The translations under genes were made by a program, and so were the position numbers. From Deltaproteobacteria bacterium (GTDB taxonomy: Bacteria; Desulfobacterota; DSM-4660; Desulfatiglandales; Desulfatiglandaceae): a DNA stretch of 36,731 nt. Below are positions 12,322 through 14,136 of this stretch, in pieces; position 1 is the stretch's first letter, and every line of letters begins with the position of its first letter. Location: assembly GCA_021737425.1 (NCBI GenBank), contig JAIPDZ010000007.1:1-36731 (forward strand), read 5' to 3'. A model generated the notes under the pieces. It was given only the letters and a program-made list of their open reading frames with translations, was not told where the DNA came from and made no database searches.

Positions 12322-12342
12322 AATAACCTCCTTCATTGGTTT

Positions 12343-12420
12343 TCACGTATGGGTTAAGCTGTTCAATGACCCGTGTGACAGACGGATTCGCACGCGACTT
12401 CTCACGCCTTTTTTGATCAC
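12343..12420 (-). CDS. Candidate 25-residue basic leader peptide ORF 2 before atoE
   Basis: A GTG at 12420 opens a 25-codon frame (MIKKGVRSRVRIRLSHG and on) that ends 21 bases before the atoE ATG. Its start overlaps the stop of the preceding leader frame as GTGA and it is preceded by the purine-rich GGGAGGAGAGGAG. The DNA AGGAGGTGATC here is fully complementary to the 16S rRNA 3' end, an unusually strong ribosome site. It may serve leader translation or ribosome standby for atoE. Confidence 0.3.
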   Translation of the reverse strand: MIKKGVRSRVRIRLSHGSLNSLTHT

Positions 12421-12518
12421 CTCCTCTCCTCCCGGGTGACCCCCTTCCCGCCAGAAATAAAAAAAGCCCCTGCTGCGGTTCCATCCGCAAACAGGGGCTC
12501 TGGGAAAGGGATTTTCAT
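12417..12518 (-). CDS. Candidate 33-residue leader peptide ORF 1 spanning the terminator
   Basis: An ATG at 12518 with AGAGGA 6 bases upstream opens a 33-codon frame (MKIPFPEPLFADGTAAGAF and on) that reads straight through the terminator hairpin and its T-tract and ends at TGA overlapping the next small frame. A ribosome translating it would occupy the terminator stem. It may be a true leader peptide or an open frame by chance; no run of regulatory codons of one amino acid is obvious. Confidence 0.3.
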   Translation of the reverse strand: MKIPFPEPLFADGTAAGAFFISGGKGVTREERR

Positions 12519-12568
12519 TTCTAATCCTCTAATGCCCTACCGAATTTCCGTAAGTTTAACTCTTTAAC
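12458..12568 (-). ncRNA. Candidate small RNA or attenuated leader upstream of atoE
   Basis: The promoter at 12575-12603 and the intrinsic terminator at 12459-12499 bound a transcript of about 110 nt lying wholly between the MATE gene stop and atoE. It could be a stand-alone small RNA, or the 5' leader of atoE with conditional termination. GGATT and AATCC at about 12506-12525 can pair and would mask the ribosome site of leader frame 1. Boundaries are inferred from the promoter and terminator only. Confidence 0.45.
12459..12499 (-). terminator. Intrinsic terminator / attenuator before atoE
   Basis: AGCCCCTG (12465-12472) pairs with CAGGGGCT (12492-12499), with an inner TGCGG/CCGCA stem and a short loop. 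On the minus strand the stem is followed by seven T. It lies 141 bp past the MATE gene stop and 138 bp before the atoE start, so it can end the MATE transcript, and it also sits directly downstream of the strong promoter at 12575-12603. Confidence 0.85.
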
Positions 12569-12574
12569 TACGTA

Positions 12575-12603
12575 ATTTTATCCAATATGAACCATTATGT
12601 CAA
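12575..12603 (-). promoter_or_regulatory. Strong sigma-70-type promoter upstream of the atoE leader
   Basis: TTGACA (12598-12603), a 17-base spacer and TAAAAT (12575-12580) on the minus strand make this the best promoter match in the window. It begins 37 bp past the MATE gene stop and points at atoE, with the terminator in between. Confidence 0.65.
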
Positions 12604-12639
12604 GAGTTAAATCGTTTCCATACATTCTCACGCCTCAGG

Positions 12640-14136
12640 TCAGGTCTCCCCGGGGACGGGCACGACATGTCCCACCGGCCGTTCCTCAATGACCCGCATA
12701 TTTTTCCATTTCCCCTTGTGGTACCGCCACCAAAAGGCAATGCCCAGGGCACTGATATACAGGGTGGCCAGGATCCAGGCCGTGTACAGCCCGGCGTCCA
12801 GCACCTCCACCGCCACGTATACCGGGAGGATCATCACCCCGAGGGAGAGCCCGGCCACCGTCCACATGATGAACCGGGTGTCCCCCGCCCCTTTCAGGGC
12901 CCCGGAAAAGACCAGGTTAAGGGCATCGAACAGGCAGAAAACCGCCACGAATCGCAGGAGCGAAACGCCCACCTCCATGACCCGTTCATATTGGGCGGTG
13001 GTGTGCTGATCGTTTTGGAACAGCCCCAGCAAGGGCTCCGGGGTGAGCACGAATACGGCCGCCACCACCACCATGTAGGCCATGGTAATATGCAGGGCGC
13101 TGGTGGTGGCGTATACCCCTGCTTCGGGCCGGCCGGAGCCGATGGCCTGGCCCACCAGGGTGGCGTTGCCGATATGAAACCCCACCATGGGCAGAAAGGA
13201 AAGGGTCTCAATGGAGAGCACGATATTGGAGGCGGCCAGCTCCAGGTCGCCCAGCCTGCCCAGGATCTGGATGAAGAAGGTCAGGCCGAAGATCTCCAAA
13301 AAAAACTGGGTTCCGCTGGGCAGCCCATAGCGCATGAGCCGGCCGAAGAGGTCCTTGTCAAAGGCCCGGTTTTTCCAGGTCCCAAACAGGGTGCGATTCT
13401 TGGGACTGAAGATGAGGACTGCAAAAATAAGACTGATGATCATGCATCCGGTGACCGTAGCGATTCCGGCCCCCACAATGCCCAGCCGGGGAAAGGGCCC
13501 CACGCCGTTGATCAGGCAGTAATCCAGGGGGATGTTGACGGCGGCCCCGGCCATGTTGACGAACATGACCGCCCAGGTAAGCCCCCGGCCGGTATAAAAG
13601 CAGGCCATGGCGGAATTCAAGACAATGAGCCCCGCACCCAGGATGAGGATATTGAAATAGGTGGTTTCCAAGGCCCGAATCGCAGGGGAATGTCCGATCA
13701 GGGCAAACAGTTCGTCTGACAGGAAAAACAAAGAGGCCAGCAAAACGGCGGAGAAGAGGGACAGGTAAATTCCCTGCCATACTGCCGCCCCTACCCGGTC
13801 CAAGGCCTTAGCCCCCGTGTACTGGGCCACAAAGGCATTGGTGTAGTTGGCCACTCCCATGAAAAAGGCCAGGCAGGTGAAGGATGCCACCCCGGCGGGC
13901 AGGGCCGCGGCAATGGCATCCACCGAGTAGTTGGCGAGAAATACCCGGTCCGTGAACTGCATCAGGGTAATGGATCCCATGGAGGCCACCAGGGGGAGAC
14001 TGATGGCCAGGACGTCACGGTATCCGTTGGGTTTGGACCAGCGTTTGATCATTGCCTTGTTGTGGGGCGGTTCGAGTGTCAGGGTTTCAATGTCGGAAGC
14101 ATCATAAGGAGACGTGCCTGAAGTTGTCAATATCAT
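12640..14136 (-). CDS. MATE-family efflux transporter
   Basis: The 498-residue protein has about 12 hydrophobic helices and MATE hallmarks: LPLVASMGSITLMQFTDRVFLANYS in helix 1-2, the repeat-like PMVGFHIGNATLVGQAIGSGRPE at the start of the second half, and GAGDTRFIMW near the end. MATE proteins export drugs, cationic metabolites or other small molecules in exchange for Na+ or H+. The family usually has 440-470 residues, and the first 28 residues here are hydrophilic and unusual; the ATG at residue 29 (14052) would give a typical length but neither ATG has a strong ribosome site. The gene is divergent from smc. Substrate is unknown. Confidence 0.9.
   Translation of the reverse strand: MILTTSGTSPYDASDIETLTLEPPHNKAMIKRWSKPNGYRDVLAISLPLVASMGSITLMQFTDRVFLANYSVDAIAAALPAGVASFTCLAFFMGVANYTNAFVAQYTGAKALDRVGAAVWQGIYLSLFSAVLLASLFFLSDELFALIGHSPAIRALETTYFNILILGAGLIVLNSAMACFYTGRGLTWAVMFVNMAGAAVNIPLDYCLINGVGPFPRLGIVGAGIATVTGCMIISLIFAVLIFSPKNRTLFGTWKNRAFDKDLFGRLMRYGLPSGTQFFLEIFGLTFFIQILGRLGDLELAASNIVLSIETLSFLPMVGFHIGNATLVGQAIGSGRPEAGVYATTSALHITMAYMVVVAAVFVLTPEPLLGLFQNDQHTTAQYERVMEVGVSLLRFVAVFCLFDALNLVFSGALKGAGDTRFIMWTVAGLSLGVMILPVYVAVEVLDAGLYTAWILATLYISALGIAFWWRYHKGKWKNMRVIEERPVGHVVPVPGET

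Follow-up and report, generated by a model that had tools for sequence, protein, structure and literature searches.

A putative translation-gated attenuator and an orphan Shine-Dalgarno element upstream of atoE in Desulfobacterota

Described leader systems and the atoE leader

In the pyrBI and amino-acid attenuators, termination is decided by the coupling of the ribosome to RNA polymerase. A similar coupling is proposed here for atoE; in contrast to these attenuators, however, neither a single-codon run nor a conserved competing hairpin was found at this locus. In the pil1 leader of Streptococcus gallolyticus, which belongs to another phylum, translation into the hairpin leads to read-through, as demonstrated by mutation (PMC3894217). 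The pil1 and atoE leaders have in common that a promoter, a leader ORF and an intrinsic terminator precede the gene and that regulatory codons are lacking, while the atoE leader possesses neither a repeat tract nor phase variation and differs in the short and regular distance between its start codon and the hairpin. This short fixed distance suggests that initiation alone may suffice at atoE.

A second related device is the STAB-SD of Bacillus thuringiensis cry3A, a Shine-Dalgarno sequence (SD) without initiation, where the bound 30S subunit blocks RNase J1 (PMC4113751; reviewed in PMC3997798 and PMC7509114). The 5′ region of the atoE leader likewise contains a strong SD that apparently does not serve initiation, and RNase J is present. 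In contrast to STAB-SD, which lies ~129 nt from the start codon, this orphan SD is positioned at a median of 77 nt (IQR 70–82, 52 sites) and occurs in Gram-negative bacteria before uptake genes.

Neither the leader nor the element was found to be reported in the open-licence literature on orphan or extra SDs, atoE attenuation, RNase J in combination with SDs, and uORFs of TRAP/TTT transporters. The parts of the atoE leader are of known kinds; it is set apart as a variant by the fixed initiation spacing, the absence of regulatory codons and the widespread SD element lacking a start codon. These findings define a leader in which transcription is seemingly decided by ribosome loading, by neither a codon nor a ligand, and suggest that an mRNA-stability device known from Bacillus may operate at uptake genes of RNase J-bearing Gram-negative relatives of sulfate reducers.

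Architecture and conservation of the atoE leader

The window, which is the whole analysed stretch of 36,731 nt from a Deltaproteobacteria bacterium (contig JAIPDZ010000007.1), contains the features collected in Table 1. Their upstream neighbour is a MATE transporter gene on the same strand, which ends at position 12640, 36 nt before the promoter. A purine-rich stretch, GAGGAGGTGATC, is situated between the terminator and the atoE start, and the leader sequence is present as a single copy in the draft genome of this organism.

Table 1. Positions of the leader features and of atoE in the window
Feature	Positions	Strand	Remarks
Promoter TTGACA-17-TAAAAT, sigma-70-type	12575..12603	-	predicted transcription start near 12568
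Leader ORF1, ATG...TGA, 33 aa	12417..12518	-	AGAGG 7 nt before start; runs through terminator
Intrinsic terminator, hairpin + T7	12459..12501	-	hairpin ~12501-12464, then seven T at 12465-12459; base 17 nt past ORF1 start codon
Orphan Shine-Dalgarno element GAGGAGGTGAT	12416..12426	-	90 nt before atoE start
Second small frame, GTG...TGA, 25 aa	12343..12420	-	probably no gene
Short-chain fatty acid transporter (atoE-like), 480 aa	10894..12336	-	PF02667, E 3.7e-106

AtoE relatives were detected in 33 of the 61 genomes searched, including the own genome of the window. Among named records, they were detected at 74 loci, most of which come from MAGs of Desulfobacteraceae and further Deltaproteobacteria. 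The upstream DNA was scanned at 70 of these 74 loci, with L087, L095, L096 and L097 omitted because their sequence starts within the gene or at its very beginning. The common layout, in which a promoter is followed by a leader ORF and a hairpin with a T run, was found in the window and 20 relatives. Within the own family, an AtoE match was present in 20 of 37 genomes and the leader in 17 of these, which are all 17 genomes that have both an atoE orthologue and upstream DNA. As for the other three, the match in G024 is a distant paralogue with 35% identity, while those in G025 and G033 begin at contig base 9 and 10, respectively, and thus have no upstream DNA.

The promoter agrees with the consensus at 11 of 12 positions, a score that was not reached in any of 100 Markov shuffles of the 155 nt before ORF1. 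It had been described beforehand as the best promoter in the window, a rank that it shares with the sites at 14130 and 2491, which also score 11/12. From the predicted start, the last T of the run is reached after ~110 nt, as previously claimed. In 17 of the 20 relatives, an exact TTGACA precedes the hairpin at a distance of ~70–130 nt; the exceptions are L034 (no upstream DNA), L067 (farther off) and L077 (none). The promoter score is noisy in the relatives because a T was demanded at the last -10 position. No promoter-like site was observed between the terminator and atoE in the window, where the best score was 4/12. The corresponding best scores in the relatives ranged from 5/12 to 9/12, the latter value in L033, L040 and L065, so that a second promoter behind the terminator is possible there. 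As a side observation, a perfect 10-bp inverted repeat, TTTAACTCTT/AAGAGTTAAA (12555-12564 and 12602-12611, 37 nt apart), flanks the promoter and could be an operator pair; on inspection of relatives by eye, this dyad was not noticed.

The 114-nt leader folds with an energy of -37.9 kcal/mol (z -3.5), and none of 200 shuffles reached a value as low. The hairpin was not picked up by a simple terminator scan, presumably due to its interrupted stem. The leaders of the 20 relatives and the window were aligned, whereby L068 and L057 were omitted for their unlike hairpins and L051 and L082 were retained despite a poor fit in the hairpin. In this alignment, 93.3% of the cells are paired and 9 of 13 pairs show changes on both sides, whereas only 39–67% of the cells pair when the structure is slid along the alignment. 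The covariation score of 0.306, compared with 0.136 for shuffled alignments, was reached by none of 500 shuffles. The hairpin with its seven T, which had been noticed in the window, is not only present there as a low-energy fold, but is conserved and covarying upstream of atoE homologues. At the sequence level, an intrinsic terminator is thus found between the promoter and atoE.

A covariance-model search of the 61 genomes returned a correctly oriented match with E <1e-4 in 18 of them, all directly before atoE, and these matches are largely by construction, as most of the matched loci apparently lie on the very contigs from which the model was built. G020 appears to lie outside the model-building set and represents an independent find. 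No confident copy (E <1e-4) was detected away from atoE in the 61 genomes, and a search of 46 family genomes at a threshold of 0.001 gave a match in 18; weak matches had E values of 0.003–1. Eight Pfam families (DUF362, YceG, histone deacetylase fold, TPP enzyme, signal peptidase, POR, cyclase and DUF6178) are represented among the upstream neighbours of ten leaders, so the hairpin does not act as the terminator for a single, constant gene ahead of it. Based on its position on the same strand and shortly behind the MATE transporter gene, the hairpin might simply terminate that gene and stand behind a promoter by chance. We regard this as highly improbable, since the promoter intervenes between the MATE gene and the hairpin, the hairpin stays with atoE while the neighbours change, and L033 keeps the hairpin even though the closest ORF on its upstream side is encoded by the other strand, 617 nt away.

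The preliminary description had left the choice between attenuation and a small RNA. A trans-acting RNA of ~110 nt, with only incidental read-through to atoE, would fit the bracketing of this length by a promoter and a strong terminator, and a short conserved AAGGCTTGCCAGTGAAAGC precedes the hairpin in many relatives. Nevertheless, a terminated leader RNA would arise under attenuation too, and a trans-acting role seems unlikely to us: every confident copy is tied to atoE, for which the window offers no promoter-like site behind the terminator, the 5′ part has no conserved structure, and the most conserved stretch is the SD with the start codon. In addition, no Hfq match was obtained in the own genome, which is 95.9% complete. 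Attenuation, in contrast, is supported by the promoter, the leader start and a covarying terminator that is kept while the neighbours vary.

Leader ORF spacing and the proposed gate

Among the 21 leaders, the leader ORF starts with GTG in 14 and with ATG in 7 cases. The start codon is found at or near the aligned place in the 20 relatives, although the ATG of L067 and L073 is off the column. Most leaders have an AGG-type SD upstream of the start and AAA as the second codon. Outside the SD, start codon and hairpin, the alignment is poor, the SD and start codon forming its most conserved stretch. The encoded peptides comprise 4–43 residues and are unrelated among the relatives; regulatory codons for one amino acid, as in the classical type of attenuator, were not found. 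The first leader frame had been described as reading through the hairpin, which is correct for ORF1 in the window. However, the ORFs of 4–6 aa in L051, L059, L070 and L077 come to a stop ahead of the hairpin or shortly after entering it. Translation through the whole hairpin is thus not a conserved feature, and once a start codon is given, an ORF that extends to the hairpin is likely to arise by chance.

The front edge of an initiating ribosome is located ~15–16 nt past the first base of the start codon. The base of the hairpin lies 15–23 nt after this first base in 16 of the 18 leaders measured (mean 18.6, SD 2.0), the exceptions being L051 (+36), for which the fold was truncated, and L073 (+8). 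Because this spacing is close to the ribosome edge, a ribosome that starts and advances by a few codons must open the 5′ arm of the hairpin. It should be considered that the leaders are of common ancestry, and hence neither their spacing nor the exchange of GTG and ATG represents independent events.

Since the peptides are short and unrelated, the signal would be ribosome loading relative to polymerase speed, or the freeing of the leader start. Thus, ribosome loading rather than a codon probably opens the terminator, and we infer that starvation for one amino acid is not the signal. According to the proposed mechanism, RNA polymerase would start near 12568 and transcribe a short 5′ stretch, followed by the leader start codon and the terminator. 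As long as no ribosome is loaded on the leader ORF, the hairpin would form and an RNA of ~110 nt would be released. When a ribosome initiates and advances, the 5′ arm would be covered, the terminator would not form and atoE would be transcribed. A conserved, atoE-specific, translation-gated transcription attenuator is accordingly predicted as the best reading of this leader, in which we place moderate confidence.

A different kind of attenuator would sense a ligand or a protein through an unknown riboswitch or an RNA-binding repressor, and the small ORF would then be coincidental. Control by riboswitches or repressors is common among transporter genes, and ~35–75 nt are available for a sensor between the promoter and the leader ORF. 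However, the consensus fold of this 5′ region has zero energy and the sequences align poorly beyond the SD, start codon and hairpin. Moreover, a search of the leader with the Rfam covariance models gave no match at the gathering score, which bears out the earlier statement that no known riboswitch class is recognised; permissive settings yielded two weak eukaryotic matches with E >1. We therefore consider a sensing leader rather unlikely.

The orphan Shine-Dalgarno element before atoE and other uptake genes

The sequence AGGAGGTGATC ahead of atoE had been noted as fully complementary to 16S rRNA. Indeed, it matches the canonical 16S tail and forms a duplex of -22.2 kcal/mol, compared with -5.7 kcal/mol for the atoE SD of the window. 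The exact string of this tail was found in 5 of the 61 family and order genomes, and the own draft contains no 16S tail. The motif A[AG]GG[AG]GGTG[AG] is present in 47 of 70 regions upstream of atoE (-260 to -25), compared with 0.27 on average, and 3 at most, in 300 Markov shuffles. In 1.10 Mb of loci (both strands), 45 orphan copies were located in atoE leaders and 7 elsewhere. When each motif position was freed in turn in 71 regions, positions opposite a 16S U carried A or G alone, apart from one C, and positions opposite a 16S C carried G in all but two cases. This substitution pattern is the one expected for 16S pairing, wobble included. In 67 of 70 cases, the orphan SD forms a stronger duplex than the SD of the gene itself, with mean values of -17.7 and -8.6 kcal/mol, respectively. 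Strong anti-SD complementarity in the 5′ region, as in STAB-SD, is thus observed.

The usual start codons are depleted 4–10 nt downstream of the orphan SD at the atoE loci. A start codon at initiation spacing occurs in only 4 of 52 sites (7.7%) there, compared with 26.3% (SD 5.9) expected. At 38 non-atoE orphan SD sites, 9 had a start codon versus 12.4 expected, and the depletion is not clear. In the preliminary description, AGGAGGTGATC was listed together with two small frames that overlap as GTGA. The GTGA overlap exists, while the second frame gives no sign of coding and the sequence represents, rather than the translation signal of a frame, a separate orphan SD element shared by many transporter genes. 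As a gene, this frame was rejected, since its GTG is located inside the SD and its excess in length is slight: across the 52 sites, frames from the GTG average 21.2 codons, versus 19.0 in frame +2. In view of this slight excess and the depletion of start codons, it is quite unlikely that the orphan SD provides the ribosome binding site for a further leader peptide starting at GTG or a rare codon, even though the motif includes GTG and is followed by frames of 2–60 codons. Inspection by eye revealed that in L035 the frame begun within the orphan SD continues into atoE with no intervening stop codon, making an N-terminal extension of this atoE possible.

A CsrA-type binding site or protein operator would agree with the GGA in the orphan SD and a second GGA-bearing SD ~77 nt downstream. 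In 14 of 57 sites, however, the sequence is GGGGG, by which GGA is lost and the 16S pairing kept, and the own genome yielded no CsrA match either. This assignment hence appears very unlikely.

On the genome scale, the motif was counted 54 times in three complete genomes reached via the loci and 43 times in the own genome, for which a looser pattern, one base shorter, was applied; the reversed patterns occurred 4 and 5 times, respectively. Mechanical classing of these sites gave 33 orphans in the three genomes and 7 in the own genome, while the remainder comprises ordinary SDs and sites within ORFs or on their antisense strand. The downstream proteins were scanned for 36 sites, comprising 31 of the orphan class and 5 of other classes that seem intergenic; of the further orphan-class sites, three precede atoE and six without a usable gene call were outside the scan. 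Substrate-binding proteins follow 32 of the 36 sites (27/31 and 5/5, respectively) and include BCAA-like, TRAP DctP, TAXI, TctC, SBP family 1, 5 and 6/8 and sugar types. As exceptions, the orphan SD of L111 in the own genome (C37:6960-6970) is followed at a distance of 92 nt by an acyl-CoA dehydrogenase, one of few non-transport genes with the element, and L201 (own genome, C271) precedes an exported-looking protein of 364 aa with no Pfam match at 1e-5, while the downstream sequences of L144 and L139 contain masked stretches. The motif was found upstream of 7 of 34 BCAA-type binding-protein ORFs, which include some spurious antisense ORFs, versus 0 of 74 other ORFs, so that it marks a subset of the binding-protein genes. 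A terminator was not found ahead of any of the 38 non-atoE orphan SD sites, which indicates that the attenuator is specific to atoE.

RNase J scores 607 bits in the own genome (cut-off 400) and exceeds the cut-off in 16 of 21 genomes. Given this presence and the STAB-SD precedent, mRNA stability seems the likeliest role of the orphan SD. The read-through RNA from the atoE leader would expose the element, where a 30S subunit would probably dock without initiating and might guard the mRNA from 5′-to-3′ decay in a STAB-SD-like manner. In a broader and tentative proposal, to which we give somewhat less than even credence, full-length SDs lacking a start codon ~80 nt before uptake genes would act genome-wide in Desulfobacterota as 30S docks that determine mRNA lifetime, while in the atoE leader such a dock would be coupled to a terminator that initiation alone opens, with the start codon one ribosome edge away from the hairpin.

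The orphan SD may also engage in pairing within the leader. It can be paired with an ACCUCC ~20 nt downstream in L045, L050, L058, L064, L098 and others (~-80), which are Syntrophales-type leaders where the terminator is absent; in many of them, the downstream stretch is CCUCC-like. Across all groups, at least 6 contiguous pairs between the orphan SD and the downstream stretch are formed at 32 of 52 sites, compared with 17.8 (maximum 25) after shuffling, and such pairing may sometimes keep the orphan SD closed.
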